Assembly: GCF_000378945.1 (NCBI RefSeq)
Contig: NZ_KB900539.1
Span: 3,484,122 to 3,548,121, forward strand
Source: Methyloversatilis universalis EHg5
GTDB lineage: Bacteria; Pseudomonadota; Gammaproteobacteria; Burkholderiales; Rhodocyclaceae
Reading direction: 5' to 3'
DNA: 64,000 nt
The position numbers and the translations under genes were made by a program. The notes under the pieces were generated by a model. The model searched no databases, was not told the origin of the DNA, and saw nothing but the letters and a program-made list of their open reading frames with translations. Below, in pieces: positions 13,285-37,603 of the stretch; position 1 is the stretch's first letter, and each line of letters starts with the position of its first letter.

Positions 13285-13288
13285 GCGC

Positions 13289-14323: not shown

Positions 14324-14333
14324 GAATTCCGCC

Positions 14334-15188: not shown

Positions 15189-15189
15189 G

Positions 15190-17447: not shown

Positions 17448-17501
17448 TGGGGCGCAGGCGTGGTTGGCGACATCCCCGGCCGGAGACGCAACCGGCCGGA
17501 A

Positions 17502-20005: not shown

Positions 20006-20014
20006 GATTGATCC

Positions 20015-21616
20015 TCAGGCACTGCGCATCACGAGTGACACGAACGCGAGCATGGCGACATAGGCAGCCACCAGACCGCCCAGACCACCGAAGAACACGA
20101 AGGTCCGGCGACGCTCGTAGCGCTTGCGCTCATTGGCGAGCAGCATCGACACCGAGCCGAGCACCGGCACGCCGGACACCTCGGCCAGAGCGCGACCGTC
20201 GTGGAACACCGGCCTGAGCTGGGACACGACGAAGGATGCCGCAACCCCCACCAGCATCGACGCAGCCAGCACCGCGGTCAGCAGGATGAGACGGTTGGGC
20301 GCCACGGGCTCCGGTGCCACGCGCGGCGGTTCGATCAGCCGGAATTCGGCGACGCCGGTGGCATCCATTTCTTCCGAGATGGACGCCGATTCACGGCGCG
20401 ACACGAGGTTGTTGTAGTTGGTGCGATGCACTTCGTAATCGCGATTCAGCTGGCTGAATTCGGCTTCGAGTTCAGGCAGCAGGCGAGAGGACTGCTTGAG
20501 AGTGGTCAGACGCGTCTGATACTCGCCCACGCGCGCGCCCAGCGACGCCACCGACGCTTCGGCGGACGCCAGCGCAACCTTGATCTGCTGGTACACCGGA
20601 TTGGGTATCTGCGCGCCGCTCAGCTGAGCACCCTGCGCCGGCTTGGCATCGGCGCTCTTGGCCGCTTCAGCCGCGTGCTTCTCGATGATCTGCTTGCGCT
20701 CGTCCTCGAGATTGCGGATGCGTGCCCGCAGTTGCTGGATATCCGGATGCTTTTCGGTGTAACGCTGAAGCATGCCTTCCACGTCGTTACGCAGCGCCGA
20801 GATGCGGGCGTCGATTTCCGCCGTGGAGGGGCCGCTCGAACCGCCGGAGCCGATGCCCAGCGAGGACGCATCGGCATTCAGGGTCGGCTCTTCACCCGCC
20901 AGCTGGCGCTTGAGCGCGTCGCGCGAATTGGTGGCTTCGCGCAGGTCGAGCTGCGCCTGATTCAGCTGAGCCTGCACCTCGCTCAACGAACCGAAGTAAT
21001 CCTTCCCGCCGCCGCCTGCACGCTCCAGGTTCTTCAGCTTGAATTCCTTGAGGCGGTTTTCCGCCTCCAGCAGCTTGGCCTCATAGGCCTTGATCTGCTC
21101 CTCGATGAACTTGCGCGCCTGATCGGCATCCTGACGCTTGCTGCCCAGGCCGGATTCGACGAACAGGGTCACCATCGCCTGCACAACCTTCTGCGCGCGC
21201 GCCGGTTTCCTGTCGCGATAGGACACGATGTAGAGGTTGTCGCGCCCTGAGCTGGACAGCTTGACGCTTTCCATCAGGTCGTCGATCAGCTTGTCGCGCT
21301 CGACCTTGGTCTTGGCTTCGAGATCGAGGTCCGCCATGCGGATCAGCTTCTCGATGTTCGGCCGGCTGATCAGCGTGCGACTCAGCATATTGATCTGCTG
21401 GTCGAGATTGGGCGTCACCGTAAGACCGGACATCAGCGGCCGCAGGATGGACTGGGTATCCACATAGATCTTGGCGGAGGCCTGGTACTGATCGGGCAGC
21501 ACGAGCACCACGCCCATGCCGGCCAGACCGACCACCCAGGCGGCGATCAGGCCAACCCAGCGATAGCCCCAGGCAGACCTGAGATAACCCGACAACTGGC
21601 GGAGAAAATCATCCAC
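20015..21616 (-). CDS. XrtA system polysaccharide chain-length determinant (Wzz/PCP family)
   Basis: A 533-residue inner-membrane co-polymerase. One transmembrane helix lies near residues 18-38 (WVGLIAAWVVGLAGMGVVL), a long periplasmic coiled-coil region spans about 160-400, and a proline-flanked second helix sits near 430-455. A third hydrophobic segment is at the C-terminus (residues about 505-528). The start is GTG at 21616 (MDDFLRQLSG). It would set polymer chain length together with the tyrosine kinase encoded next and the Wza-like exporter encoded before it. Confidence 0.92.
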   Translation of the reverse strand: MDDFLRQLSGYLRSAWGYRWVGLIAAWVVGLAGMGVVLVLPDQYQASAKIYVDTQSILRPLMSGLTVTPNLDQQINMLSRTLISRPNIEKLIRMADLDLEAKTKVERDKLIDDLMESVKLSSSGRDNLYIVSYRDRKPARAQKVVQAMVTLFVESGLGSKRQDADQARKFIEEQIKAYEAKLLEAENRLKEFKLKNLERAGGGGKDYFGSLSEVQAQLNQAQLDLREATNSRDALKRQLAGEEPTLNADASSLGIGSGGSSGPSTAEIDARISALRNDVEGMLQRYTEKHPDIQQLRARIRNLEDERKQIIEKHAAEAAKSADAKPAQGAQLSGAQIPNPVYQQIKVALASAEASVASLGARVGEYQTRLTTLKQSSRLLPELEAEFSQLNRDYEVHRTNYNNLVSRRESASISEEMDATGVAEFRLIEPPRVAPEPVAPNRLILLTAVLAASMLVGVAASFVVSQLRPVFHDGRALAEVSGVPVLGSVSMLLANERKRYERRRTFVFFGGLGGLVAAYVAMLAFVSLVMRSA

Positions 21617-21659
21617 GGCTACTGAACCCTTCCGGCTGAAGCACGATGACCCGACACGC

Positions 21660-22286
21660 TCAGAACCAGCTCTGCGGAATGATCAGGATGTCGCCCGGCT
21701 TCACATCGACGTTGGCGCTCACGTCGCCGCGACGGATCAGGTCCTTCAGGCGCACGTTGTACTGCTTGTCGCCTTCCGAAGTACGCAGGATGGAGGCCCC
21801 GTTGCCGTCAGCAAAGTCGGTGATGCCGCCGACCGCAATCATCACGTCGAGCAGCGTCATCTTCTGCTTGTAGGCCAGCGCCTGCGGCTTGGCGGCTTCG
21901 CCGATCACGCGGATCTGTTCGCTGTAGGGGCCGATGCCACCGGCGACGATGACGGTGACGATGGGATCGCGGATGTACTTACCCAGCACCTGTTCGATCT
22001 CGCGGGCCAGGGTCGAGGGGTCACGGCCGGCCGCCGGCAGATCCTCGAACAGGGTGCCGGTGATCTTGCCGTCCGGACGGATGGTGACGGTGGAAGAAAT
22101 CTCCGGATTGCGCCAGACGACGATGCTCACCGAGTCACCCGGACCCAGGATGTAGTTGTAATCGTCGCTGTAGGCCTGCGTCGGGGCCGGCGGATACGGC
22201 GAGGAAGCGCAGCCAGCGAAGGCAAGCGGCACCAGCAGCAGCGCCAGCAGGCGCAGCATGGACATCAGACGGTCAGAATTCAACAT
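21660..22286 (-). CDS. XrtA/PEP-CTERM exopolysaccharide export lipoprotein (Wza family)
   Basis: A 208-residue outer-membrane lipoprotein with a Poly_export domain followed by SLBB-type domains, shorter than E. coli Wza as is usual in XrtA loci. It would form the outer-membrane channel for the polymer. The signal peptide ends in a lipobox (LAFAGC). The export signature YILGPGDSVSIVVWRN is followed by VTIRPDGKI. The ATG at 22286 has a GGAGG ribosome-binding site 7 bp upstream, which rejects the longer reading. It appears to be the first gene of the long exopolysaccharide operon. Confidence 0.92.
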   Translation of the reverse strand: MLNSDRLMSMLRLLALLLVPLAFAGCASSPYPPAPTQAYSDDYNYILGPGDSVSIVVWRNPEISSTVTIRPDGKITGTLFEDLPAAGRDPSTLAREIEQVLGKYIRDPIVTVIVAGGIGPYSEQIRVIGEAAKPQALAYKQKMTLLDVMIAVGGITDFADGNGASILRTSEGDKQYNVRLKDLIRRGDVSANVDVKPGDILIIPQSWF

Positions 22287-22323
22287 TGCTTCCTCCAAAG
22301 GACAGCGGCCAGACAAGCCGCGA

Positions 22324-22329
22324 ATCATA
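22324..22329 (-). promoter_or_regulatory. Possible -10 box of the exopolysaccharide operon
   Basis: On the minus strand TATGAT lies 38 bp before the wza-like start. No good -35 hexamer is found at normal spacing, so this would be a weak or activator-dependent promoter. The 84-bp gap to the preceding permease gene holds no terminator that I can see, so readthrough from the permeases is possible. Confidence 0.3.
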
Positions 22330-22370
22330 GCCAAGGCGCCGGTTCGCGCGCTCTAATGCGTCACGGCCGG

Positions 22371-23582
22371 TCAGATGTTGTAGCGCAGCGCATCAACGAT
22401 GGGCGTGCGCGACACCTTGCGGGCCGGCAGCAGAGCCGCCGCTACGGTGGCCCCGACGCCGACCAGGAAGGCCAGCATTACATTTTCCGGCATCACCCGG
22501 ATGGACGCGGTGTACCCCACGTTCGAATTCGGCGGCGGCGGCATCGGAATGCCGACTTCGCTGATCGCCAGCGCCACCAGCACGCCGACCAGCACGCCGC
22601 AGATCGCGCCGCTCAGCCCCAGCAGCGCGTTCTCCGTCAGCACCAGCCGGAACACGTATCCTCGCGAATTGCCGAGTGCCATGAGCGTTCCGAATTCACC
22701 GACCCGCTCAAAGACACTCATGTTCACAGTATTGAACACGCTCAGCAGCACCATCATCAGCACGATCCACTGCAGCACGCCGAACTGGGTCCGGTAGAGC
22801 TCAACGGTCTTCGAATAGAAGTCGGAAAGCTGCACCCAGTCACGGATGTCGAACCCCAGACTTTCCAGCTTGGGCACCAGCAGCTCCTTCACCCGTGCGG
22901 TATCGACCGTGCGATGCAGCAGCAGCACGATGGAGTTCGATCCTTCGCGCGCAACCAGATTGCGGGCGGCCGCCACCGGAATTCTTACGGCACGCGCGTC
23001 GAAATCCTTTGAAAAACTCTGGAACACGCCGACCACCGAAAATTCGGTGGTATTCAGCGCGCCGTCCGCGGTATTCATGATGAGCGTCACCGCATCGCCC
23101 GGCTTCAGCGCCAGCGCCTTGGCCACGCCATCGCCGATCAGGATGCCGCCGCTGTCGCTGTCCTTCAGTGCACGCCCGGCCGTGATGCGGACGAAGGTGC
23201 CGAGATGGCTCTCCTTGTCAGGCTCCACCCCCTCCCCCATCACCGCCCAGTCAGCCTTGCCGTTGTTGAGCAGGCCGGTGAAGCTCACTCGCTGCAGCAC
23301 CGTATCCGCCTCCGGCATGCGCGCCGCAAACTCGGCAATCCTGGCCGCATCGTCGATCATGAATTTTTCGGGCGAACGCGAACCCTGTTCGTAGAAGCCC
23401 TTGCGGAACACCTGCACATGACCCAGCTGGCTGTGTATAGTCGCCTCGCCCAGCTGGGTGAGCACGTCGGCCACAAAACCGCCACTCAGGATGAGACCGG
23501 CCACACCGAAGATGATGGCGGCCAGCGTCATCGCGGTACGCGATTTCTGGCGGAGGATGTTGCGCAGGGCGAGCTTGAACAT
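22371..23582 (-). CDS. FtsX/LolC-type ABC transporter permease (second of a pair)
   Basis: A 403-residue permease with the four-helix layout of LolC/MacB: a first helix at about 20-42 (TAMTLAAIIFGVAGLILSGGF), a large periplasmic domain, and three C-terminal helices with the FtsX core (VGEFGTLMALGNSRGYVFRLV). Such permeases work as mechanotransmitters, extracting lipids or lipoproteins from the inner membrane and not forming a channel. The ATG at 23582 (MFKLALRNIL) is 5 bp after the stop of the first permease. No ATPase is adjacent; the only LolD-like ATPase in the window is at 32021-32776. Confidence 0.9.
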   Translation of the reverse strand: MFKLALRNILRQKSRTAMTLAAIIFGVAGLILSGGFVADVLTQLGEATIHSQLGHVQVFRKGFYEQGSRSPEKFMIDDAARIAEFAARMPEADTVLQRVSFTGLLNNGKADWAVMGEGVEPDKESHLGTFVRITAGRALKDSDSGGILIGDGVAKALALKPGDAVTLIMNTADGALNTTEFSVVGVFQSFSKDFDARAVRIPVAAARNLVAREGSNSIVLLLHRTVDTARVKELLVPKLESLGFDIRDWVQLSDFYSKTVELYRTQFGVLQWIVLMMVLLSVFNTVNMSVFERVGEFGTLMALGNSRGYVFRLVLTENALLGLSGAICGVLVGVLVALAISEVGIPMPPPPNSNVGYTASIRVMPENVMLAFLVGVGATVAAALLPARKVSRTPIVDALRYNI

Positions 23583-23587
23583 GGCGG

Positions 23588-24817
23588 TCAGCGGCTCTGC
23601 CGGAGCGCGTCGACGATATTCATGCGCGAGGCGCGCCACGCCGGATACAGACTGGACACGAAAGCGCTGGCTACCGCGATCGCCAGCGCCCTGGCGACGA
23701 TGCCGAACGTGAGCCGGATCTCGCCGCTGAAGCCCTGTTCCATGCCCGGTGGCGGCGGCAGCGGAATGCCGACCGCCGAAATCGCCAGTGCCAGCACGCA
23801 GCCGATCACCACGCCCAGACCGCCCCCCACCAGCCCGAGCATCACGCCTTCCGACATGAAGATGCGACGGATGCGCGCCCGGGTCAGTCCGAGCGCCATG
23901 CAGGTGCCGATCTCGCTCACCCGCTCCATCACGCTCATCGACAGCGTGTTGGAAATGCTCAGCACGATGATCATCAGGATGATGAACTGCACCACATTGA
24001 CCTGGCTGGCAAACAGATCGCGCGTCTTGTTATAGAAGTCGGACAGCTGATACCAGGGAACCAGATCGAACTTGCCGGCGGGCATCACGCCTTTCAGCTC
24101 AGCCAGTTTGGCGTCGGTCTGCGCGGTGTCGTCAAGCAGCACCAGCCACTGCTGGGCACCATTGACCCGCACCAGCTGCTGGGCCAGCGCAAGCGGCATG
24201 CGCAACGCGGAGTCGTCGTATTCCTTGCTGACCGAATTGAACAGACCCACCACCGGCGCCTCGACCGCATTCACGTTGCCGGCAGCGGTGGTGGTCATCA
24301 GCACCACCGTATCGCCGACCTGCACGCCGAGATTGGCCGCCAGACCACGGCCCATGATCATTTCGTTCACGCCGTCGGCCGACAGGTTGCGACCGCGGGT
24401 GATGGTGACCGAACTCGACAGCACCGACTCGGCCTTGGCCGAAACCCCCTGACCGAGGAAGGCCAGCGTATTGTCGCCCTTGCTGGCCAGCCCGTTGAAG
24501 CTCAGGCGCGGCGCGACCACCTTCACGTCGGCACCGGATTCGATTTTCTGCCGGAGCGCGTCCTCGCCGTCGATCACGAAGCCATAGGGATCCGAAGTGC
24601 CGCGCTCGACATAACCCGGACGCACCACCTGCACATGGCCAAGCTGGGACTTTATGGTCGATTCCCGCATACCCTCCATCAGCCACTCGATGAAGCCGGC
24701 GGACAGGATCATCGCGATCACGCCGAAACTGACCGCACCGATGGCAATGAGCGTGCGGCGTCCCTGACGGAGGACGCTGCGCATCGCCAGCCACAGGTCA
24801 AGCAGCCAAAACTTCAT
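23588..24817 (-). CDS. FtsX/LolC-type ABC transporter permease (first of a pair)
   Basis: A 409-residue paralogue of the adjacent permease. It shares the architecture of an N-terminal helix (LIAIGAVSFGVIAMILSAGF), a periplasmic domain of about 220 residues and a C-terminal FtsX domain (VSEIGTCMALGLTRARIRRIF). Shared segments include KSQLGHVQV and IPLPPPP near the third helix, so the pair may form a heterodimer like LolCE. It is the promoter-proximal gene of its operon and is divergent from the ThiF-like gene across 110 bp. Cargo is unknown; the neighbours suggest envelope lipids or lipid-modified products. Confidence 0.9.
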   Translation of the reverse strand: MKFWLLDLWLAMRSVLRQGRRTLIAIGAVSFGVIAMILSAGFIEWLMEGMRESTIKSQLGHVQVVRPGYVERGTSDPYGFVIDGEDALRQKIESGADVKVVAPRLSFNGLASKGDNTLAFLGQGVSAKAESVLSSSVTITRGRNLSADGVNEMIMGRGLAANLGVQVGDTVVLMTTTAAGNVNAVEAPVVGLFNSVSKEYDDSALRMPLALAQQLVRVNGAQQWLVLLDDTAQTDAKLAELKGVMPAGKFDLVPWYQLSDFYNKTRDLFASQVNVVQFIILMIIVLSISNTLSMSVMERVSEIGTCMALGLTRARIRRIFMSEGVMLGLVGGGLGVVIGCVLALAISAVGIPLPPPPGMEQGFSGEIRLTFGIVARALAIAVASAFVSSLYPAWRASRMNIVDALRQSR

Positions 24818-24836
24818 CCGGATTCAAGACTTCAGG

Positions 24837-24852
24837 TGCTAAGGTATTGCCA
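24837..24852 (-). promoter_or_regulatory. Possible sigma-54 promoter for the permease pair
   Basis: The minus-strand sequence TGGCAATACCTTAGCA has GG and GC separated by exactly 10 bases, as sigma-54 requires, 20-35 bp before the permease start. The -12 block (TAGCA in place of TTGCA) and the CG after TGGCA are imperfect, so this is a moderate candidate. Confidence 0.35.
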
Positions 24853-24886
24853 GCATAACAGTTTTCCCCTCACCATCCCCAGCTGT

Positions 24887-24900
24887 CGACGCATGCGTCG
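24887..24900. promoter_or_regulatory. Palindrome in a divergent promoter region
   Basis: A perfect 14-bp palindrome (CGACGCATGCGTCG) lies 27 bp before the ThiF-like start, in the divergent region between it and the ABC permeases. It could be an operator for either direction. No regulator gene is nearby. Confidence 0.35.
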
Positions 24901-24927
24901 GAGATAGCCGGGACACCGGGTGGAGCG

Positions 24928-25803
24928 ATGACAACACAGTTCAATTACGAAGAAGCTTTCAGCCGCAATCTCGGCTGGTTCACCGAAGCCGAACAGGCCA
25001 GACTGCGCCGGAGCACGATCGCCATCGCCGGTCTAGGCGGCGTCGGCGGCATTCACCTGCTCACGCTGGCCCGACTGGGCATAGGCCGCTTCCGGATCGC
25101 CGATTTCGACACTTTCGGCGTACACAACTTCAATCGCCAGGTCGGCGCGACCATGAGCACGCTCGACCGCTCCAAGATAGAAGTGCTGACCGAACAGGCG
25201 CGCGACATCAATCCGGACATCGAGATCGAGTGCTTTCCGCAGGGCGTGTCGCCGGACGACCCGGACAGCTTTCTGAAGGGTGCGGACGTCTACGTCGACG
25301 GCCTTGATTTTTTTGCATTTTCCGCCCGCAGAGCCACATTCGCCGCCTGCCACCGCCTGGGCATCCCGGCGGTGACCGCAGCACCGCTGGGCATGGGCAC
25401 CGGGCTGCTGGTGTTCTCACCACAGGGCATGAGTTTCGAACAGTATTTCCGGCTGGACGGCTGCGACGAAACCGAACAGGCCTTGCGCTTCCTCGTCGGT
25501 CTGGCACCAGCCGGACTGCACCGCCCCTATCTGGTCGAGCCCTCGCGCATTGATCTGGCCAACAAGCGCGGCCCGTCCACGATGATTGCCTGCAACCTCT
25601 GCGCAGGCGTCGCCGCCGCCGAAACGGTCAAGCTGCTGCTCGGCCGCGGCGACGTAAGACCGGCTCCATGGGCCCTGCAGTTCGATGCCTTCCGCAATCG
25701 GATGGTCCGCACCTGGCGACCGGGCGGCAACGGCAACCCCTTGCAGCGCCTCATCATCGCCCTCGGCCGGCGGCAGCTGCTCAAGCAGATCACCCGCGCC
25801 TGA
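24928..25803 (+). CDS. ThiF/MoeB-like E1-type adenylyltransferase
   Basis: A 291-residue E1-like enzyme. The Rossmann loop GLGGVGG is at residues 35-41, the acidic pair is in IADFDTFGVHNFNRQ (Asp59, Asp61, with Asn69 and Arg70 of the ATP site), and a later CNLC is a single possible metal-binding pair. Enzymes of this fold adenylate the C-terminus of a ubiquitin-like protein or peptide. The usual second CxxC pair and a clear catalytic Cys loop are not evident. The gene is followed after 15 bp by a nitroreductase-like gene, a known recurrent partnership of unknown function. It is probably not for thiamine or molybdopterin synthesis, since no thi or moa gene is near. Confidence 0.85.
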   Translation: MTTQFNYEEAFSRNLGWFTEAEQARLRRSTIAIAGLGGVGGIHLLTLARLGIGRFRIADFDTFGVHNFNRQVGATMSTLDRSKIEVLTEQARDINPDIEIECFPQGVSPDDPDSFLKGADVYVDGLDFFAFSARRATFAACHRLGIPAVTAAPLGMGTGLLVFSPQGMSFEQYFRLDGCDETEQALRFLVGLAPAGLHRPYLVEPSRIDLANKRGPSTMIACNLCAGVAAAETVKLLLGRGDVRPAPWALQFDAFRNRMVRTWRPGGNGNPLQRLIIALGRRQLLKQITRA

Positions 25804-25818
25804 TTAACGGAGCTCCCC

Positions 25819-26889
25819 ATGCGCACGATAGAAAAGATTCTCGATCAGGCCCGCTGGGCTCCCAGCGGCGATAACACCCAGACCTGGCGATTCGAAATCC
25901 TGAGCGACGACCATGTGGTCATCCACGGTTTCGACACCCGAGACTGGTGCGTCTATGACCTGGACGGCCACGCCAGTCAGCTCGCGGTGGGCGCCCTGCT
26001 GGAAACGCTGTCCATCGCCGCCAGCGGCCACGGTCTGCGGGCCGACATCACTCGCCGTCCTGACACGCCGGACACCCATCTGCTGTTCGATGTGCGGCTG
26101 GAGCCCGATTCGTCAGTCCAGCCCAGCCCGCTCATCCCCTGCATTGAAACCCGCAGCGTGCAACGCCGCGCCATGGGCAGCCGCGCGCTGACGCTGGACG
26201 AGCGCAAGGCACTGGAAGCCGCCGTTGCGCCCTACCGCATTCTGTGGTTCGAAACGCTGGGCGAGCGGTCGCGCATCGCCAAGCTGAATTTCGACAGCGC
26301 GGAAATCCGGCTCACGATTCCAGAGGCCTTCCGTACCCATTCGACCATCATTGAATGGGGCGCCCGCTTCAGCGAGGACCGTATCCCGGAAGTCGCGGTC
26401 GGCGTAGATCCGATGACCGCCAGGCTGATGAAGTTCGTGATGCAGAGCTGGGGGCGCGTCGATTTCTTTAACAGGTGGCTGTTCGGCACACTGGCGCCCC
26501 GCATACAGCTCGATTACATCCCGGGCATCGCATGCTCGGCCCACGCCTTCATGGTGGCCCCGTCAGCGCCGGTTTCAATCGACGACCACATCGCGGCCGG
26601 GCGGGCGATGCAGCGACTGTGGCTCACGACAGAAAAGCTGGGCCTGCAGTCGCAGCCCGAAATGACCCCGCTCATCTTCAATCAGTACGCACGTGAAGGT
26701 AAGCACTTCACCGGAAAGGAATCCGCTCGTCACCGGGCCGCGGATCTAGCGGCCCGCCTGGGCACGCTGTTGTCACCGGAAAACGTCGATCGCACGGTCT
26801 GGGTGTGCCGACTCGGCCGCAAACGCCCCATACCTGGCCGCTCGATCCGACTGCCCCTGCCCCGATTGAATACATCACAGGATCGCTGA
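25819..26889 (+). CDS. Long nitroreductase-family protein paired with the ThiF-like enzyme
   Basis: A 356-residue protein, much longer than the roughly 200-residue simple nitroreductases. The FMN-contact signature ARWAPSGDNTQTWRFE is at residues 11-26 and further family-like segments lie in the C-terminal half (AGRAMQRLWLTTEKLGLQSQPE). It may oxidise or reduce a small molecule or peptide using FMN, as SagB-like azoline oxidases do, but no such peptide substrate is seen here. It is in one operon with the ThiF-like gene. Whether this should be called MoeY-like is uncertain. Confidence 0.75.
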   Translation: MRTIEKILDQARWAPSGDNTQTWRFEILSDDHVVIHGFDTRDWCVYDLDGHASQLAVGALLETLSIAASGHGLRADITRRPDTPDTHLLFDVRLEPDSSVQPSPLIPCIETRSVQRRAMGSRALTLDERKALEAAVAPYRILWFETLGERSRIAKLNFDSAEIRLTIPEAFRTHSTIIEWGARFSEDRIPEVAVGVDPMTARLMKFVMQSWGRVDFFNRWLFGTLAPRIQLDYIPGIACSAHAFMVAPSAPVSIDDHIAAGRAMQRLWLTTEKLGLQSQPEMTPLIFNQYAREGKHFTGKESARHRAADLAARLGTLLSPENVDRTVWVCRLGRKRPIPGRSIRLPLPRLNTSQDR

Positions 26890-26953
26890 ACAGGCTGTCG
26901 GTAAACCTTACAGAACCACAGGCGCTGCACACCGAATCACCGGACACAGAACT

Positions 26954-26985
26954 TCGTTGAAAAAAACATCATTCATTTTCAACGA
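26954..26985. promoter_or_regulatory. Perfect 10-bp inverted repeat upstream of the PEP-CTERM gene
   Basis: TCGTTGAAAA and TTTTCAACGA form perfect arms with a 12-base spacer, centred about 64 bp before the predicted sigma-54 start site of the PEP-CTERM gene. It could be an enhancer-binding-protein site; the PrsR regulator known for PEP-CTERM genes is a candidate. It could also act as a terminator hairpin for the nitroreductase gene ending at 26889, but no U-tract follows. Confidence 0.45.
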
Positions 26986-27006
26986 GATAAAAGAATAGTC
27001 TAAAAC

Positions 27007-27022
27007 TGGCCCGTCGATTGCT
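27007..27022 (+). promoter_or_regulatory. Sigma-54 promoter of the PEP-CTERM gene
   Basis: TGGCCCGTCGATTGCT fits the -24/-12 consensus TGGCACG-N4-TTGCW with one mismatch and exact GG-to-GC spacing. Transcription would begin near 27034, giving a leader of about 35 bases that carries GGAG before the ATG at 27069. Sigma-54 control of PEP-CTERM genes is established in floc-forming relatives. Confidence 0.72.
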
Positions 27023-27068
27023 TATAGCCAACCGTGGTTCTCCCAAGCCAACCAACGGAGTAATTCAA

Positions 27069-28109
27069 ATGATCAAGTTCAAGCAAATCGCCGTTGCCGC
27101 AGCGCTGGCCAGCGCCTTCGCCGCAGCGCACGCAGCGCCGATCAGCGTGTTCACCCCCAACGGTCAAGTGAGCGGCATCGCTGCTTTCGACTGGGCCCCG
27201 TCGCCGGTGCTCGCCCAAGGCGGTAACGCAGCGTTCGTCAAGCTCGCGAACGGCACCAATGACGGCGTCGCCGGCATCACCAACACCACCGCAGGCTTCC
27301 CGCTGACCGGCAACGCCTTCACGGTGTACTCGCAAGGTCGTCTGAACCTGTTCCAGAACGGTACCGGCGCTGCAACCGCTGGCCTCTGGACTGGCGCTGG
27401 CTCGACCGCTGGCAAGTACGAAATCACTTTCGAACTGGCCTACACCGAAATCGTTGGCGTCGCGAACACCTTCCCGACCAACCAGGCTTTCTTCGATTTC
27501 GCTGCCACCCAGACCATCAACTACTTCCGCGTCTATGTCCAGGATCTGGATGACGCCGGTGCAGTCGCTTCGAACTACGCCTCGGGCAACGGTTTCAACG
27601 ACGGCAAGCTGGTGTTCGAAGGTAAGGTCGCTCCCGCCGCCTCCCAGGCTGGCGTGTTCTCCGACTTCAAGGTTGGCGCTGGCGTGACCCCGCTGGGCAG
27701 CGATGGCGATGCCTCGAACGGCACCTCGTCCCTGTCGTCGGTGAATAGCGTGAATGGCAGCGGCAGCACCCCGATCATCGACCTGCTGTCGGTCATCCCG
27801 ACCACCTATGATCTGAGCTTCTGGAACGGCGTCCTGACCGAGTTTCTGATCTCGAACATCAACCAGAACCTGCCCTTCACCTCGGTGGATCCGTCGGAGA
27901 AGTTCCACGGCTCGATCACCCCGAACGTCGGCACCACCAACGGTGGCACGAGCTTCCAGCCGGGCGTTGGCCTGGTTGCTTCGGGTCCGGACATTCTGTT
28001 CCAGACCGACCCGAACGGCCCGCTGCAAGCCGTGCCGGAACCCGGCACCCTGGCGCTGGCTGGCCTGGCACTCGGCGGTCTCGCCCTGGCCCGTCGCCGC
28101 AAGGCCTGA
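27069..28109 (+). CDS. PEP-CTERM sorting-domain protein, possibly PepA-like
   Basis: A 346-residue exported protein. Residues 1-23 are a Sec signal peptide ending AAAHAA. The C-terminal 25 residues are a textbook PEP-CTERM signal: VPEPGTLALAGL, a hydrophobic helix, then ARRRKA. The middle is rich in Asn, Gly, Ser and Thr and lacks Cys, with many possible O-glycosylation sites. Exosortase A at 10518-12056 is the expected processing enzyme. The ATG at 27069 has GGAG upstream; an earlier in-frame ATG lies upstream of or inside the promoter. Aromatic and WAPSPV-type segments recall flocculation protein PepA, but this is from memory. Smoother codon use than its neighbours suggests high expression. 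Confidence 0.9.
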   Translation: MIKFKQIAVAAALASAFAAAHAAPISVFTPNGQVSGIAAFDWAPSPVLAQGGNAAFVKLANGTNDGVAGITNTTAGFPLTGNAFTVYSQGRLNLFQNGTGAATAGLWTGAGSTAGKYEITFELAYTEIVGVANTFPTNQAFFDFAATQTINYFRVYVQDLDDAGAVASNYASGNGFNDGKLVFEGKVAPAASQAGVFSDFKVGAGVTPLGSDGDASNGTSSLSSVNSVNGSGSTPIIDLLSVIPTTYDLSFWNGVLTEFLISNINQNLPFTSVDPSEKFHGSITPNVGTTNGGTSFQPGVGLVASGPDILFQTDPNGPLQAVPEPGTLALAGLALGGLALARRRKA

Positions 28110-28130
28110 TAGGCAAGCAGTCGCATGATC

Positions 28131-28158
28131 AAAAACGGGAGCTTCGGCTCCCGTTTTT
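28131..28158 (+). terminator. Intrinsic terminator of the PEP-CTERM gene
   Basis: A stem of AAAACGGGAGC paired with GCTCCCGTTTT around a TTCG tetraloop, followed by TTTTTGTTTTG, starts 21 bp after the stop codon. It is a strong rho-independent terminator and confirms a single-gene transcript. The A-run on the left also makes it usable from the minus strand, against the converging glycosyltransferase gene. Confidence 0.92.
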
Positions 28159-28268
28159 GTTTTGCTGCTCCGGTTGTGCTGTTCTGCAAGAAACGCCAGC
28201 TTCGGAAAACACAAGCCGCCTCGACGCGCACACCGTGTCGCCCCGATCGGTGACCGGGCATCCCCACC

Positions 28269-29471
28269 TTACAGCGTAGCAACCTCTCTGCGTATGCCTT
28301 CGCCGGCATCGTGCCGGAGGAAATCCGCCTGTACGGCACGCGCCGCATCGCGGAAAGCCGCGCCGGACGGACCGGTCATGCGGCGAATGGCGGCGCTCAG
28401 ATCGCCATAGCCAGCGGTGCCCGCACGCAGAGCAATGCCTGCCCCCGCATCGACCACTCGCGCCATGGTCAGAAACTGGTCCATGTTCGAACAGACGCCG
28501 ATTACCGGCCGCCCCTGTGAAAGCGTCTGATACACGGTCGCGCTGCCGCCATTGCAGATAACGAAATCCGCGCGCGCAGCCGCTTCGAGTCCAGGCAGGT
28601 AATCGGCGACGAAACAGTGCGGCCCCGGCGACGCAACATCTGAGCGCCCGGCCGTAGCGGTCATCGCATTGACACCGCAGTCTTCGAGCGCACGGAACAG
28701 TTCGGGCAGCAGATCCACCCGCCCGGTCGAGCCCAGCGTGACATAGGCGAGCGGGCCGTCCGGCAACGCAGTCCACCATGCGGGCAGCGCCATCGCCGGC
28801 GACCACACGATAGGGCCGATATAGCGGTGATGAGACGGGCAATCCGGTCGCACCGGCACCAGTGAGGGCGTGTCGGCATACAGCGTGCGATCGCCATCGG
28901 TATAGGCGTAACGGACATCCGGAAAAGTGCTCAGTCCGAACTTGCGGCGAAGCGCATTCAACGGACCGGCATGCAGCCGGAACGCAATCGGCTGGCCCAG
29001 CCGGAACAGCGGTTCTGCCAGCTTGGGCCCAAGCACCCGGGTCAGCGTGATGTCAGGCAGCGGAAAGCGGTCGTGCAGTGCCCACGGACTCCAGTGAGCA
29101 TTGCACAGCGCGAAGTACGGAATGCCGACCAGGCGGGCGGAAACGCTCAGCGACAGCCTGAAATCGCCGATCACTGCATCCGGGCGCAACCTGCGCAGCA
29201 GCGCCACGTCTTCGTCGATATAGCGTTCGAGCTCGGCCCGGGTATAGAGCGGGGCACCCGCCGCCAGCCGTTCGAGAAAAATGGCAGCAGGAATGCTTTC
29301 AAGCGATTCGCGCGCCAGCCCGGTACCGCGGAAGCAGAGATCGAAAACCGGCGCAGAAGCCACCGTCACGTCATGCTCACCCGCCAGCGCATTCGCCAAC
29401 ACCACCGGACGCGCAACATGGGCCAGCGATACCGCTTCCGCCACCAGCAGGACGCGGCGGCGCGCCGTCAT
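28269..29471 (-). CDS. UGT/MGT-type glycosyltransferase (GT1 family)
   Basis: A 400-residue GT-B enzyme of the GT1 class, which glycosylates lipids or small acceptors and not usually polymers. The N-terminus (RRVLLVAEAVSLAHVARPVV) is the acceptor domain entry. The donor domain has LAYVTLGSTGRVDLLPELF and the plant-secondary-product-like box DFVICNGGSATVYQTLSQGRPVIG. The ATG at 29471 shares one base with the TGA of the epimerase gene (TGATG); a GTG lies one codon earlier. Together with the epimerase it may attach a deoxysugar to a lipid, acyl-amino acid or glycoprotein. Confidence 0.85.
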   Translation of the reverse strand: MTARRRVLLVAEAVSLAHVARPVVLANALAGEHDVTVASAPVFDLCFRGTGLARESLESIPAAIFLERLAAGAPLYTRAELERYIDEDVALLRRLRPDAVIGDFRLSLSVSARLVGIPYFALCNAHWSPWALHDRFPLPDITLTRVLGPKLAEPLFRLGQPIAFRLHAGPLNALRRKFGLSTFPDVRYAYTDGDRTLYADTPSLVPVRPDCPSHHRYIGPIVWSPAMALPAWWTALPDGPLAYVTLGSTGRVDLLPELFRALEDCGVNAMTATAGRSDVASPGPHCFVADYLPGLEAAARADFVICNGGSATVYQTLSQGRPVIGVCSNMDQFLTMARVVDAGAGIALRAGTAGYGDLSAAIRRMTGPSGAAFRDAARAVQADFLRHDAGEGIRREVATL

Positions 29472-30604
29472 CACGCGCCCTTTGCGCGACCGAACAGACC
29501 GAAGCGGCTCAATTCCGCCACCGTCTGCTGATAGCGGTCTTCCGAGGGCTGACCGCTGGCCCAGGCAGCGAACTCGGCCATGCCCTGATCCAGCGAACAG
29601 GCCGGCGCATAACCCAGCTCGGCACGGGATCGAGCCAGATCGGCGACGCAGCCGAAAATGTCTCCCACCCGGAATTCACCCCGGTCTTCCATCGTGACCG
29701 GCTTGCCGACCGCCCGCGCCAGCGCGTTCGCGATGTCGCCTATCGTGCTGGCCACGCCGGCCCCGACATTGAAGGTGGAGCCGGCGGGCACGTCGGCCAC
29801 CAGGGCGCGCATATTGGCCGCGACGACGTCGGACACATGCACGAAGTCACGCACCGGCAGGCCGCCTTCATAGACCGAGATCGGCTGACCGGCGCAGATG
29901 CGCGAGTAGAAAATGGAGACGACGCCGGTATAGGGATTTTTCAGCGACTGGCGAGAACCGAACACGTTGAAGTAGCGCAGGATGACCGCCGGCACGCCGA
30001 AGGTTTCCGCCGCGTAACGGACGAAATCCTCCTGGTGCTTCTTGGTGATCGCGTACACCGAAAAGGGCTCGGATCGCTTGTGCTCGGGTGTGGCCACCGC
30101 ATCAAGATCGCCTTCACACACCGGGCAGGGCATCGTGAAACGGCCGGACTCGAGCCGCTCGCGGGTGCGTGGCGCAGGGAACTGTTCGCCGTGCGTCGGG
30201 CAGACATAGGACCCTTCGCCATAGATGGCGCGCGAGGACGACAGCACTAGGCGCTTCAGCGCATGGCCACCCTTCACGATGCCTTCGATCAGCGTGGTGG
30301 TGCCGATGGCATTGACCCGGGCGTAGTGAGTCATGTCGTACATGCTCTGACCGACGCCGGTCAGCGCAGCAAAGTGATACACCGCATCCACGCCGTCGAG
30401 CGCACGCGCCACGTCATCCGGATTGCACACGTCGCCGACCTGAAGCTCGACCTCTGGGGCGAGGTAGGCCGGGCGCTGGCGCGCCTCGCCGTGGATCTGC
30501 GGATCGAGAATGTCCAGCGCGCGCACGCTGTGGCCGGCGGCCAGCAGCGCATCGGCGGTATGCGAGCCGATGAAGCCGGCTCCGCCTGTGATCAGCACCT
30601 TCAT
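29471..30604 (-). CDS. NAD-dependent epimerase, dTDP-L-rhamnose 4-epimerase-like
   Basis: A 377-residue extended SDR enzyme. The NAD loop GGAGFIGSH is at residues 7-15, and the YAITKKHQE segment supplies the catalytic Tyr-x3-Lys. Between the Ser site and the Tyr, an insertion carries VCPTHGE and later MPCPVCEGD, a Cys/His set that looks like a small zinc site. The same insertion is known in the dTDP-L-rhamnose 4-epimerase branch, so dTDP-6-deoxy-L-talose is a likely product. The ATG at 30604 is chosen because it begins exactly at the first Rossmann strand. It lies 19 bp downstream of the DUF1302 gene and is coupled to the UGT-type gene. Confidence 0.85.
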   Translation of the reverse strand: MKVLITGGAGFIGSHTADALLAAGHSVRALDILDPQIHGEARQRPAYLAPEVELQVGDVCNPDDVARALDGVDAVYHFAALTGVGQSMYDMTHYARVNAIGTTTLIEGIVKGGHALKRLVLSSSRAIYGEGSYVCPTHGEQFPAPRTRERLESGRFTMPCPVCEGDLDAVATPEHKRSEPFSVYAITKKHQEDFVRYAAETFGVPAVILRYFNVFGSRQSLKNPYTGVVSIFYSRICAGQPISVYEGGLPVRDFVHVSDVVAANMRALVADVPAGSTFNVGAGVASTIGDIANALARAVGKPVTMEDRGEFRVGDIFGCVADLARSRAELGYAPACSLDQGMAEFAAWASGQPSEDRYQQTVAELSRFGLFGRAKGA

Positions 30605-30623
30605 GTCAGGCCTCCGGTGAAGG

Positions 30624-32024
30624 TCAGAAGGAGTAGCGCAGTTCGCCGTAGTAGCGGTCGGAATTCCCGAAGCGGCCGAAATAGCCATTCGGATTGCCGC
30701 CGAACAGATCGGCGCCAAACTGGGCGCGCCAGTTCGACTGCACCCGCCAGATGAGCTTGGGGCGGAACATGTAGTCGTTGCGCACCAGCGACTGCACCCA
30801 CAGCATTTCGCCTTCAAGGCGCTCGTCGAACTTGTGGTTGTACAGCAGCGCCATGCCATTCTCGCGCTTCGACGCCAGCAGGTCGGCGTTGCGGTCGATG
30901 TGGTAGCGCTCGAAATACTGGATGTTGAAGCGCGATTCGTTCTGGAACGGGAAGTCGAGGCCGATTGCATAGTCGACCATGTCCTGCCGGACCAGACCAT
31001 CAGGCAGCGCGGACGACACCGGCAACCGGCGATCACGCGTCAGCACGCCTTCGGCACGCAGCAGGAAGCTGCCGAAATCCTTGGTCAGCGTAGCGCCGTA
31101 CTGGTGTATCCAGTCATGCTCCGGCGTATAGATGACCGTGGTCGGCGACGCGAAGCGGCGAGCGAAGGTGGGATTCACGTCCAGGCTGCGGTAGTAGAAG
31201 GCCGACAGGTCCCAGCCCTTCACAAGGGTACCGACCCGCAGGCCGTAGTTCGAGTTGCTCAGCTTCGAATCCGGCCGCTGCTGCGCTTCGTAGCGGGCAT
31301 TGACACCGGGGATCGCCGGCTGGGTCGGATAGAAATCACCGCCGAAGCGACCGATGTTGTCCACGCTCACGTACGGCACCCAGATCAGCTCGGCGCGCCA
31401 GTCGTTGCGGAAGTACTCGGCGCGGGCCGCCCACTGCGGAATGCGCTGCTGATCGAATTCCTGGGTGAAGAACTCGCGCATGTCCCGGGCCGATACGACG
31501 TCGGCGAAGAACAGGCCGACCATTTCGCCCCACACGATGTGCTGGCGACCCAGCCGCAGTTCGACATCGCCGACCGGCATGTCGACATACACCTCGCGCC
31601 AGGCGAATTCGCTGCGGCGGTCATCGCGCACCGCAGCCGGGTAGAAATCGTTCTCCCAGCCGTAGGCGAGGTCGTAATCGATGCGGCCGACCGCCTTCCA
31701 CTTGATGCCCTGGCCGAAACTGCCGCTGCGGCCCAGTTCGTTGCGCCAGCGCGCCTTCGACCAGTGGCTGTCACCGGACACCGTGCGCGCCAGTTCGAAC
31801 TGGCTGAAACCGCGCCAGCCGGACATACCTTCGCCACTGCTCGCCGCGCCATCGGCCGCCTTGCCGTCCGCCTGTTTCGCCTTGCCATCGGTTTCGGCCG
31901 GCGGGTCCGCGAACAGGTCGTCGAGCGAATCGGCAGCCTGCGCCGGCGACAGTGCGCAGGCTGCAGCAAAGGTCAGCGCGGCCAGAGGCACACGGCGGAA
32001 GGACGGAAAGGAACGACGCATCAT
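30624..32024 (-). CDS. DUF1302-family outer-membrane protein
   Basis: A 466-residue predicted outer-membrane barrel with a signal peptide of about 30 residues (LAALTFAAACALSPAQA). After a charged Ala/Lys-rich linker the barrel has family segments such as VELRLGRQHIVWGEM and the terminal strand YYGELRYSF ending in Phe. Two ATGs stand in tandem; the first, at 32024, overlaps the TGA of the ABC ATPase gene as ATGA. Its operon partner is the LolD-like ATPase, and the LolA-like gene is divergent just beyond, so it is probably the outer-membrane terminus of that transport route. A second DUF1302 protein lies at 51005. Confidence 0.82.
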   Translation of the reverse strand: MMRRSFPSFRRVPLAALTFAAACALSPAQAADSLDDLFADPPAETDGKAKQADGKAADGAASSGEGMSGWRGFSQFELARTVSGDSHWSKARWRNELGRSGSFGQGIKWKAVGRIDYDLAYGWENDFYPAAVRDDRRSEFAWREVYVDMPVGDVELRLGRQHIVWGEMVGLFFADVVSARDMREFFTQEFDQQRIPQWAARAEYFRNDWRAELIWVPYVSVDNIGRFGGDFYPTQPAIPGVNARYEAQQRPDSKLSNSNYGLRVGTLVKGWDLSAFYYRSLDVNPTFARRFASPTTVIYTPEHDWIHQYGATLTKDFGSFLLRAEGVLTRDRRLPVSSALPDGLVRQDMVDYAIGLDFPFQNESRFNIQYFERYHIDRNADLLASKRENGMALLYNHKFDERLEGEMLWVQSLVRNDYMFRPKLIWRVQSNWRAQFGADLFGGNPNGYFGRFGNSDRYYGELRYSF

Positions 32025-32776
32025 GAAGCGGCTGCCTGAAGTGAAGCGGTTTTCGGTGGTTTGACGTAAGCCCATTCGCCCGGCGCTTTCTGCACGCCCA
32101 GCGCAGTCAGCTCGCCGTCCTCGATGCGCACCAGGCGATCCGCCATCGACATCACCCGCTTGTCGTGCGTCGAGAAGATGAAGGTGGTCTTCATCGTGCG
32201 GTTGATCTCGCGCATCAGTTCGAGAATGGCATCGCCGGTCTTGCGATCTAGGTTGGCGGTCGGTTCATCGGCCAGCACGATGGCAGGCTGAACCGCAAGC
32301 GCGCGGGCGATGGCCACCCGCTGACGCTGACCGCCGGAGAGCTGATTCGGCCGGTGAGTCATCTTCTGCCCGAGACCGACGATTTCGAGAAAGTAGCGTA
32401 CGCGACGGTCACGCTCTTCCTTGCCGATTTCCGGCAGCTGAAGCAGCGGGTATTCGACGTTCTCGTAGGCCGACAGCACCGGCAGCAGATTGAAGGTCTG
32501 GAAGATGAAACCGATGGTGCGAGCACGCAGGCTGGCCAGTTCGTCTGGCGTCTGACCGGACACGTCCTGACCGTTGATCAGTATCTGACCAGAGGTTGGC
32601 GTATCGATGCAGCCGATGAGATTGAGCAGCGTTGATTTTCCGCTGCCGGACGGCCCCGCAATGGCGATGAACACGCCGTCCTCAATATCCAGCGTGATAT
32701 TCTTCAACGCATTGACCTGCTGGCCGCCAAGCATGTAGCTGCGGCTCACATTCCGGATCTGGACGACGTTGTTCAT
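32021..32776 (-). CDS. LolD/MacB-type ABC transporter ATP-binding protein
   Basis: A 251-residue ATPase. Walker A is at 41-49 (GPSGSGKST), the Q-loop is FIFQTFNLLP, the signature is LSGGQRQRVAIARAL, Walker B is IVLADEPTANLD and the switch His lies in FSTHDKR. This is the MacB/LolD class that works with FtsX-type permeases. No permease gene is next to it, but two unpaired FtsX permeases are at 22371-24817 on the same strand. The ATG at 32776 (MNNVVQIRNV) starts the canonical fold. It is divergent from the LolA-like gene across 53 bp. Confidence 0.93.
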   Translation of the reverse strand: MNNVVQIRNVSRSYMLGGQQVNALKNITLDIEDGVFIAIAGPSGSGKSTLLNLIGCIDTPTSGQILINGQDVSGQTPDELASLRARTIGFIFQTFNLLPVLSAYENVEYPLLQLPEIGKEERDRRVRYFLEIVGLGQKMTHRPNQLSGGQRQRVAIARALAVQPAIVLADEPTANLDRKTGDAILELMREINRTMKTTFIFSTHDKRVMSMADRLVRIEDGELTALGVQKAPGEWAYVKPPKTASLQAAAS

Positions 32777-32829
32777 CTGGAAGCCCGGTTCAGAAAACGG
32801 GTCATGCGCCCGGTGCTGGAGACAAGAAC

Positions 32830-33642
32830 ATGAATCATCCGAACACCCCTTGCGCACCGCAGGCAACGACTGCGCCCGGATGCGCACGACGCGCCCGCCA
32901 TGCCCTGCTGCGTATCCTCGCGGCGACCGCGGCCTGTACTGCACCGTTGTGGGTTGCGTCGCAGGCGTACGCCCAAGATGCCGCAAGTATACTGGAAAAG
33001 GCCGACACCATCCGGTTCCCGCGTGAGCCCTTCCAGGTGGAAGTCAGCGTCACCTCGACCACCGCGAGCGGCGAGGAATTCCGCAAGTACCGCATCCTGT
33101 CCAAGGGCAACGAAAACACCATCGTGCAGACCACCGAGCCGGCATCCGAGCGCGGCCAGATCCTGCTGATGAAGGCGCGCGACCTCTGGGTGTTCCTGCC
33201 CACCGTATCGCAGCCGGTCCGCCTGTCGCTGGCACAGCGACTGACCGGTCAGGTGGCCAACGGCGATCTGGCGCGCGCCAATTTCTCCGGTGACTACACA
33301 CCCAAGCTGCTGCGCACCGAGAAGGTGGATGGTCAGGACCACCACGTACTCGAACTGAGTGCGGTCGACCGCGGCGTGACCTATGCCCGTGTGCTGTTGT
33401 GGGTGCGTGCCGCCAACAATGCGCCGCACAAGGCCGAGTTCTATTCACTGTCCGACAAGCTGCTGAAAACCTGCGTCTATGACGAATACAAGACACTGGG
33501 TGGCAAGCTGCGACCGACCCGGCTGACCATGCAGGACGCACTGAAGGCGGGCGAGCAGTCGGTACTCGAGTACGGCGCCATGCAGATCCGCGAAATTCCG
33601 GACAAGGTGTTCGACAAGGAATACCTGAAGAAACTACAGTAA
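32830..33642 (+). CDS. LolA-like outer-membrane lipoprotein-sorting protein
   Basis: A 270-residue periplasmic protein. The first 48 residues form a long signal peptide ending AYAQD, after an n-region rich in Cys, Arg and Pro. The remainder has the all-beta LolA_like fold seen beside FtsX or MMPL transporters: FQVEVSVTSTTASGEEFRKY, LLMKARDLWVFLPTVSQPVR and YDEYKTLGGKLRPTRL. It would carry a hydrophobic cargo between the ABC complex and the outer membrane. GGAG lies a few bases before the ATG. It is followed after 57 bp by the acyltransferase gene. Confidence 0.88.
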   Translation: MNHPNTPCAPQATTAPGCARRARHALLRILAATAACTAPLWVASQAYAQDAASILEKADTIRFPREPFQVEVSVTSTTASGEEFRKYRILSKGNENTIVQTTEPASERGQILLMKARDLWVFLPTVSQPVRLSLAQRLTGQVANGDLARANFSGDYTPKLLRTEKVDGQDHHVLELSAVDRGVTYARVLLWVRAANNAPHKAEFYSLSDKLLKTCVYDEYKTLGGKLRPTRLTMQDALKAGEQSVLEYGAMQIREIPDKVFDKEYLKKLQ

Positions 33643-33699
33643 GAAGAACAGTTCAGCGCACGCGGGATACACACCCGCGGCTCACCCGGTCAGATCATC

Positions 33700-34446
33700 A
33701 TGTTTCTGCTCGAAGTCGGAAGCCTCAAGGAAAACTTCGCCAAGTATTTCGCGGTGGAAGCCGCCGTGGACGAAGCGATGAGGCATGAGGTGTACCGCGT
33801 CCGGCACCAGGTGTATTGCGAGGAACTGGGCTACGAGGAAGTCAATCCGGATCACGAGGAAACCGATCAGTACGATGCGCAGTCGCTGCTGATCGCGCTG
33901 CGCGCGCAGGGCAGCGGTCGCATCGTCGGCTGCGTGCGACTGGTACAGGTCGATCCGGCAGATCCGGCCGCCGAGCTGCCCTTCGAGCATCTGTGCAGCG
34001 ACGCGATAGACCGTACCACCATCGACCCCGCCCGCATCGATCGCCGGCACATGGTCGAAATTTCGCGACTCGCAGTGCTGTCGGATTACCGCAAGCGGAA
34101 GGGCGACAGCGGCGGCCCGATCGCGATTTCAGACGAAGATCTGGGCACCCGCGACCAGCCTCGCTTCCCCTACATCCCGGTCGGCCTCTATCTGGGCCTG
34201 CTCGCCGCCGCGGAACTGCACGGCGTTGAACATCTGTTTACGCTGACAGAAGCAAGACTGGCGCGCCACCTGACCGCGCTCGGATTCCGCATCCACCTGA
34301 TCGGCCAGGCGGTGGAACACCGCGGCAAGCGCGTACCCTCGGTCATCTACCGCAGGGAACTGATGGAGCACCTTCCGCCCTTCATGCGGCCTCTGTACGA
34401 CCAGCTGCTTGAAGAGATGTCGGCACGTTACGCGTTGCCGGCCTGA
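33700..34446 (+). CDS. PEP-CTERM/exosortase-associated acyltransferase (N-acyl amino acid synthase type)
   Basis: A 248-residue GNAT-fold protein distantly related to acyl-homoserine-lactone synthases. Typical segments are VYRVRHQVYCEELGYEE, DAQSLLIALRAQGSGRIVGC and MVEISRLAVLSDYRKRKGD, the latter two forming the acyl-carrier binding core. This family is confined to genomes with the PEP-CTERM/exosortase system, and members tested in other bacteria make long-chain N-acyl amino acids. Here it ends the LolA-like operon. The product could be a signal, a surfactant or cargo of the neighbouring transporter; its amino acid is not predictable. Confidence 0.88.
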   Translation: MFLLEVGSLKENFAKYFAVEAAVDEAMRHEVYRVRHQVYCEELGYEEVNPDHEETDQYDAQSLLIALRAQGSGRIVGCVRLVQVDPADPAAELPFEHLCSDAIDRTTIDPARIDRRHMVEISRLAVLSDYRKRKGDSGGPIAISDEDLGTRDQPRFPYIPVGLYLGLLAAAELHGVEHLFTLTEARLARHLTALGFRIHLIGQAVEHRGKRVPSVIYRRELMEHLPPFMRPLYDQLLEEMSARYALPA

Positions 34447-37259: not shown

Positions 37260-37353
37260 CGCAATCCGGCCTTGCGGCCGCCTCCTCCATGAACGTCTGC
37301 TGCGTTCGTCCGGGCGCTGCGACCGTCAGCCGCATAACCCCACTGCGCGTCAG

Positions 37354-37370
37354 TGTAAGGGAGATGTAAG
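37354..37370 (-). promoter_or_regulatory. Direct repeat, probable response-regulator box
   Basis: On the minus strand CTTACA-N5-CTTACA, with an 11-bp period, lies about 95 bp before the regulator start. This is the layout bound by OmpR/PmrA-type dimers, at the position of a -35 element; GGTTATGC follows 16 bp downstream as a possible -10. Autoregulation of the two-component operon is the simplest reading. Confidence 0.5.
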
Positions 37371-37443
37371 CGCTCAAGAATAGTCTGCGCAGCGCTGTTC
37401 TTCTTTTGGTCCGCGGGGGCACACCGGTCACACGGAACGCCCC

Positions 37444-37487: not shown

Positions 37488-37603
37488 CTGGCGCGCGCCG
37501 CCCTCCCCTTTCCCCTGTACGGTTTCACCCGCCGCGTCCGCCCCGCCCCGGCCGACCTTTGCTGCGCGCCCATCCACGCCGCATGAATCGGGTGCGTAGA
37601 CGA

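Follow-up and report, generated by a model that had tools for sequence, protein, structure and literature searches.

Within a 64,000-nucleotide stretch of the Methyloversatilis universalis EHg5 genome (contig NZ_KB900539.1, positions 3,484,122 to 3,548,121; hereafter the window; source genome 4.09 Mb, two contigs), two LolC/E-like permease genes (22371-24817) lie without a neighbouring ATPase gene, and a LolD-like ATPase gene of the ATP-binding cassette (ABC) type, 7.2 kb away, has no adjoining permease. This layout raises the question of whether the two halves belong to one transporter and, if so, what that transporter carries. A preliminary description of this DNA had taken them, together with a LolA-like carrier and a DUF1302 outer-membrane barrel encoded around the ATPase, for one system linked to an acyltransferase, and had explained the split by insertion of an accessory island. 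Our comparisons bear out the single system and its link to the acyltransferase, and do not support the insertion: the separated parts are one conserved, split transporter system linked to the exosortase XrtA, and we give slightly better than an even chance to the reading that this locus, attached to the XrtA locus, encodes both the synthesis of an N-acyl (dehydro)amino acid lipid and, in the ABC-LolA-DUF1302 system, a dedicated exporter for it.

The single system is carried by the co-occurrence of its parts. We surveyed 81 related genomes (genomes are designated G and loci L, followed by a number), counting as the ATPase orthologue a match with an E value of 1e-70 or below, at most one per genome. 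Orthologues of the ATPase, permease 1 and the LolA-like carrier occupied an identical set of 28/81 genomes, and the barrel was present in 27 of these 28. Only G053 departs from this, and there permease 1 is cut off by the end of a 6.5-kb contig; its partial match (225.8 bits) was counted, having 49% identity and adjoining the ATPase, with one paralogue elsewhere scoring 235 bits. Permease 1 without the ATPase and the LolA-like gene, a combination that the preliminary description had named as speaking against its proposal, was found in none of the 81 genomes at the thresholds used. When one genome per genus was counted the sets again coincided (17/17 vs 0/52). The parts share a genome even where the transporter halves are distant, lying 140 kb apart in G034, over 2 Mb apart in G026, and on separate contigs in G015, G018 and G043. 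In G032 (L024, L026) the ATPase has gone from between the barrel and LolA genes and lies on another contig with no permease match beside it, and a third contig carries another, diverged pair of permeases.

A second survey, of the class, covered 370 genomes with the barrel alone sought as the transporter marker. The barrel was matched at E 1e-25 in 46/370 genomes, and the 15 with at least 486 bits were counted. Orthologue and paralogue thresholds were set after viewing gaps in the score lists (here at least 486 vs at most 267.5 bits). In six genomes the best barrel match scored 225-268 bits, with XrtA over cut-off in three of them (G241, G259, G350) and the acyltransferase family TIGR03694 in two (G241, G128). 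The Fisher p values given below take no account of kinship or multiple testing, and one-per-genus counts were also made.

The components themselves are related to the LolCDE machinery and distinct from it. Permease 2 (22371..23582) and permease 1 (23588..24817), both on the minus strand and 5 bp apart, contain MacB_PCD and FtsX domains; the scores of the pair against the TIGR02212 equivalog, 129.1 and 106.0 bits, are below its cut-off of 362.45. The LolD/DevA-like ATPase (32021..32776, minus strand, PF00005) retains intact Walker A, LSGGQ, Walker B and H-loop motifs, and scored 231.4 bits against the LolD model TIGR02211, below the cut-off of 307.75. LolC/E (500.2 bits) and LolD (327.7 bits) are both encoded elsewhere in the genome with scores above their curated cut-offs, indicating that the split system is an additional one. 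The barrel (30624..32024, minus strand; PF06980 40.3 bits, gathering threshold 23.2) has a signal peptide as judged by eye and no sequence relative in the PDB at E 1; its ATG overlaps the ATPase stop codon (ATGA). Divergent from the ATPase gene, with 53 bp between them, lies that of the LolA-like periplasmic carrier (32830..33642, plus strand; PF17131 165.3 bits, gathering threshold 30), a close relative of NE2245 (PDB 3BUU, LolA superfamily, 309.1 bits). This carrier had no NCBIfam match at E 0.01, and the presence of a signal peptide, the absence of a lipobox and the solubility of the protein were all judged by eye. The genes that the preliminary description named are present, and the family matches of the carrier, the barrel and the acyltransferase exceed their thresholds. 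The start codons at 23582 (second permease) and 32776 (ATPase) were chosen by reading as the better ones, since the listed open reading frames (for the ATPase 321 aa from a TTG) seem to start too far upstream. In G022, G014, G069, G070, G033 and others, both with and without the XrtA-linked system, a paralogous FtsX permease is paired with a LolA-like gene of the PF17131 type next to it (28-38% identity to that of the window).

The partnership of ATPase and permeases is a prediction from gene data, and in G043 there is another ATPase-type match (33% identity) close to permease 2. Each half might accordingly pair with a subunit encoded elsewhere, their co-occurrence reflecting a shared link to XrtA. 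We regard this as highly improbable, since the presence of the two parts over the 81 genomes is identical, which is tighter than the tie of either to XrtA, and since FtsX permeases in this genome usually come with their own ATPase. A search of the 4.09-Mb genome gave eight FtsX matches at six loci, one being the permease pair; four of the other five loci had an ATPase inside the 3.3-kb piece examined, and the fifth, with an 851-aa duplicated permease (L005/L006), had none within that piece. From these gene-level data we infer that the permeases and the ATPase form one complex.

We next compared 79 loci from a set of 337 relatives in GTDB r220 (80 were retrieved, of which one was a reversed copy). 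In 20/79 loci no more than 600 bp separated the permeases from the ATPase-barrel-LolA unit, the adjacent arrangement that the preliminary description had asked after; the permeases were convergent to the barrel in 16 of these and stood on the side of LolA in 4. The distance was 0.9-5.8 kb in 22/79; the permeases were not seen in the retrieved flank of 34/79, and the ATPase was not in the retrieved piece of 3/79. In G075 the ATPase, barrel, permease 1 and permease 2 genes form a single row. Two gene groups recurred, one of LolA divergent from ATPase-barrel and one of the permeases, often divergent from the ThiF and nitroreductase genes described below; in 16 of the 28 loci holding both, ThiF and permease 1 were divergent and at most 200 bp apart, 9 of the 16 being from Methyloversatilis. 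We propose that the two groups move independently and yet stay together in genomes. The split layout is not an effect of chance or assembly, because it recurs across the genus and partly beyond.

On the strength of the locus layouts, the linkage of ThiF to the permeases and the changes on a locus tree, we reject the idea that an accessory island was inserted into an ancestral unit. In this tree (86 loci, FastTree only, with a weak root and some long branches), the same-strand separated layout of the window required 7 changes, 6 of them forced by starred branches, the convergent adjacent layout 6 changes, 4 of them forced, and all labels together 20, indicating that the parts were rearranged many times rather than separated by one insertion; with the root weak, no ancestral layout can be named. 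Between 24818 and 32020 lie the genes for ThiF, an Acg-type nitroreductase, a PEP-CTERM protein, a UGT and an epimerase, along with that of the barrel. ThiF and nitroreductase belong to a known acyltransferase pathway, and the UGT and epimerase genes stand in a tight run with those of the ATPase and the barrel, all four being on the minus strand in the order ATPase, barrel, epimerase, UGT from 32776 down to 28269. Most of the supposed island thus belongs to the system. Among 90 core loci, 28 of which span less than 18.5 kb, homologues of the UGT were found in 17, of the epimerase in 5 and of the PEP-CTERM gene in 6, and only the epimerase and PEP-CTERM genes look like variable cargo.

As for what is carried, the genes linked to the transporter point to an acylated amino acid. 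The acyltransferase gene follows that of the LolA-like carrier by 57 bp (33700..34446, plus strand) and encodes a PEP-CTERM/exosortase-associated enzyme of the N-acyl amino acid synthase type (TIGR03694 229.4 bits, cut-off 111.95), with domain matches to Acetyltransf_5, Autoind_synth and FeeM. Its family was found in 22/28 transporter genomes compared with 5/53 without the transporter in the first survey (11/17 vs 5/52 with one genome per genus), and in 14/15 barrel genomes compared with 41/355 others in the class survey, where it lay within 4 kb of the barrel in 10/14 genomes and at about 0.1 kb in G352, G424, G197 and G443. The tie to the barrel held when the class survey was restricted to genomes with XrtA (13/14 vs 23/62, p 0.00014). 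Among the six transporter genomes without TIGR03694, a FeeM-type synthase was clear in the fetched loci of G061, G074 and G039 and weak in that of G015.

The locus also encodes, at 24928-26889, two enzymes that complete a known trio with this synthase. The first is a ThiF/E1-like adenylyltransferase, a predicted oxazolone cyclase (24928..25803, plus strand; PRK08223 462.7 bits, cut-off 266), which was found in 22/28 transporter genomes and 6/53 others (11/17 vs 6/52 with one per genus). Its GxGGxG motif, R70, K83 and D127 are near-invariant across 33 aligned rows, and the adenylation residues are kept; we take these positions, from their spacing, to be the corresponding MoeB/ThiF residues. The second, 15 bp downstream, is an Acg/Rv1355c-like flavin nitroreductase, a predicted desaturase (25819..26889, plus strand; PF00881 35 bits). 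Of 36 ThiF loci, 29 had a synthase and 22 a nitroreductase match in the retrieved DNA, with seven of the 36 chosen mostly for their ThiF or synthase; 14 of the 18 ThiF loci of the named collection have a synthase. A FeeM-type synthase, ThiF and nitroreductase stand in a row in L009, L042 and L121 among others. A search for the synthase-ThiF-nitroreductase triple fusion (NF011425) gave no match in 299 Pseudomonadota genomes, with the control also silent, and is uninformative. A second, FeeM-type synthase was seen near ThiF/nitroreductase or the transporter in L009, L039, L041, L042, L057, L082, L083, L093, L110, L112, L113 and L121; a scan of two members, L039 and L110, assigned them to PF21926, and L082 carries both synthase types.

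We assign ThiF and nitroreductase to the acyltransferase because the trio matches the published recipe for oxazolones and N-acyl-dehydrotyrosines. In the reports on OxzA/OxzB and TyzA/TyzB/TyzC (PMC10404671) and on TrzA/TrzS (PMC12856293), acyl-oxazolones arise through an enzyme that N-acylates an amino acid, an ATP-dependent cyclase resembling ThiF, and a flavin oxidase from the nitroreductase superfamily; kyonggic and thalassotalic acid producers carry the same adjacent trio, yet no oxazolones were seen from them (PMC12479983). The window shares the synthase, the ThiF-like cyclase and the flavin nitroreductase with the oxzAB, tyzABC, trzAS, kyonggic/thalassotalic acid and stieleriacine clusters; it differs in having an exporter of its own, an XrtA locus, a synthase of the TIGR03694 subfamily, a product that is only predicted, and a synthase gene 6.8 kb from that of the nitroreductase. 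A tie of the synthase to the XrtA system is shared with the PEP-CTERM/exosortase-linked N-acyl amino acid synthases (Craig 2011, as cited in PMC11072679).

On this basis, the TIGR03694 enzyme would acylate an amino acid with a fatty chain, the ThiF-like enzyme would adenylate the carboxylate of the acyl amino acid and cyclise it to an oxazolone, and the flavin nitroreductase would desaturate the acyl amino acid, alongside or instead of the cyclisation, so that either or both steps would give an acyl-oxazolone or an N-acyl-dehydroamino acid. In this strain, the UGT and the epimerase may attach a sugar. The two permeases and the LolD-like ATPase would act as a LolCDE/MacB-type extractor that lifts the lipid from the inner membrane, the soluble LolA-like protein would ferry it over the periplasm, and the DUF1302 barrel would insert it into the outer membrane or pass it through. 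The linkage of the genes suggests that this lipid is also what the transporter carries, and the product, the direction and the cargo of the system are likewise predictions from sequence.

Several results weigh against this reading. The nitroreductase falls below the curated models, with 116.5 bits against NF047509 (cut-off 199) and 98 bits against the Rv1355c family (cut-off 476), and is only a candidate for the oxidase subgroup of TyzC/OxzB (FDO-A). Neither G026, an Accumulibacter-like genome, nor G075 had TIGR03694 over cut-off or a FeeM-type gene in the fetched loci, to which the FeeM search was confined, and the PRK08223-type ThiF is also absent from G026. Six Zoogloea-clade loci (L068, L071, L084, L094, L099, L106) have no synthase in about 20 kb, and a synthase of either type was present in 54/90 core loci and in 41 of the 62 with full context. 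In the first survey, when only XrtA-bearing genera were considered, neither TIGR03694 (10/16 vs 4/8, p 0.44) nor ThiF (p 0.32) was significantly tied to the transporter, and synthase and ThiF occur without the transporter in G038, G067 and G078. XrtA itself is found without the transporter in 9/36 genomes of the first survey and 62/76 of the second; G009, of the same genus and without the whole module, remained among these nine and was not used as evidence, its XrtA contig ending short with a possible assembly gap. The transporter without a nearby synthase in the Zoogloea loci, G026 and G075 calls for caution, since the cargo may be wider.

The link to XrtA offers a different account of the cargo. 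XrtA (EpsH; match region 11205..11981, minus strand, G000:C1:3495326-3496102; TIGR03109 349.6 bits, cut-off 208) was over cut-off in 27/28 transporter genomes compared with 9/53 others (16/17 vs 8/52 with one per genus), and in 14/15 barrel genomes compared with 62/355 in the class survey, where barrel and XrtA shared a contig in 8/15 genomes, within 19 kb in six of the eight and at 51 kb (G197) and 432 kb (G298) in the others. The system could thus serve the exosortase as a Lol pathway of its own, bringing lipid-attached PEP-CTERM proteins processed by XrtA, or their lipid anchor, to the outer membrane; the genes for the acyl amino acid would then be separate from it though often nearby. XrtA was the tightest non-core partner in the first survey (27/28, compared with 22/28 for the synthase) and equal to the synthase in the second (14/15 each), and the ATPase-barrel pair stands directly beside the XrtA export gene, with no synthase in the retrieved piece, in five Zoogloea loci, L094 and G043. 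LolCDE machines are established as handling lipidated proteins. The exosortase is proposed to hand proteins to a periplasmic nucleophile en route to the outer membrane (PMC1569441). We consider this account rather unlikely, since the barrel is missing from those 62 XrtA genomes of the class survey, G053 and G424 bear transporter and synthase without XrtA over cut-off, the synthase was statistically tighter in the class survey and close to the barrel in most of its genomes, and a FeeM-type gene lies between the export gene and the barrel in G018 and G034. A second exosortase-like gene of the window's genome (G000:C1:1847131-1847916) scored 149.7 bits, below the XrtA cut-off.

The exopolysaccharide genes next to the permeases suggest yet another cargo. 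The XrtA-type exopolysaccharide locus (12022..22334, minus strand) contains NCBIfam matches over cut-offs to TIGR03087, TIGR03019, TIGR03006, TIGR03015, TIGR03016, TIGR03018, TIGR03007 and TIGR03027, together with a WecB-type epimerase, and begins 36 bp from permease 2, with an export gene. In addition, the genes of the UGT/EryCIII-type glycosyltransferase (28269..29474, minus strand; PF06722 33.4 bits) and the NAD-dependent sugar epimerase/dehydratase (29471..30607, minus strand; PF01370 169.3 bits) overlap by 4 bp, with 16 bp between the latter and the barrel gene, making one tight run with the barrel and the ATPase. The system could therefore export an exopolysaccharide component, such as a lipid-linked or acylated sugar made with these two enzymes, but their scarcity among the core loci (given above, many with short flanks) and the export genes that the XrtA locus carries for its own polysaccharide make this very unlikely.

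Returning to the export of an N-acyl (dehydro)amino acid lipid, we compared the transporter with known systems. Like LolCDE-LolA, it has two LolC/E/F-related permeases, a LolD-like ATPase and a soluble carrier of the LolA superfamily, but it lies below the LolC/E and LolD equivalog cut-offs, adds a DUF1302 barrel, is encoded in two gene groups and is linked to XrtA. A DUF1302 outer-membrane barrel with a LolA-superfamily periplasmic protein is shared with AmeABCD of Castellaniella, in which they accompany a resistance-nodulation-division (RND) pump (PMC6394551), and with PP_0765/PP_0766 of P. putida, in which the barrel is predicted in complex with a DUF1329 protein (PMC10866462). Unlike AmeABCD, the window has a LolCDE-like ABC drive instead of an RND pump, a PF17131 carrier instead of DUF1329, and no AmeC-type protein among its annotated genes; no RND pump was found among the annotated genes of 22371-34446. 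Judged by the curated cut-offs the split system is not LolCDE, and having no RND pump it is not an Ame system; by analogy its export is best read as an ABC-driven counterpart of the DUF1302/LolA-fold/RND systems. No published account of this ABC-LolA-DUF1302-XrtA set was found in the open-licence literature.

If the favoured reading is true, N-acyl (dehydro)amino acid lipids have an identified exporter that can be removed by gene deletion, and DUF1302/LolA-fold export can run on an ABC machine. It would also give a testable candidate for what XrtA attaches proteins to and how its products reach the outer membrane, a question that concerns bacteria living in flocs and biofilms, Zoogloea and Accumulibacter among them. 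In a bolder version, which we think quite doubtful, the module would be the second half of the XrtA system in many Betaproteobacteria, making an anchor lipid (an N-acyl amino acid or oxazolone) for the exosortase or the polysaccharide, and the Lol-like route would bring to the outer membrane either this lipid or a PEP-CTERM protein anchored to it. Being an electrophile, an oxazolone that is exported could even acylate free amines of a deacetylated polysaccharide.

Minor observations concern the surroundings of the module. The PEP-CTERM protein gene (27066..28109, plus strand; PF07589 29.2 bits) is preceded, 44 bp before its likely start, by a sigma-54-like -24/-12 site with one mismatch (27007-27021, plus strand), and perfect -24/-12 matches lie at 49356-49370 and 59338-59352 (both minus strand); the pattern scan gave 44 matches in total compared with 77.5 by chance, i.e. 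fewer than chance. Proteins with tetratricopeptide repeats (TPR; median 928 aa), HDOD-histidine kinases (737 aa) and partly response-regulator-like proteins (734 aa) recur near the module (L022, L049, L013 and others), and are perhaps its regulators; the clustering of open reading frames with a filter on GC at third codon positions under-counts low-GC genomes, and L010 came out empty. Next to the module in the window (35114-39321, minus strand) are genes read as those of a two-component sensor/regulator pair and of GroEL, and such a pair and GroEL likewise stand beside the acyltransferase in L027 and L030.

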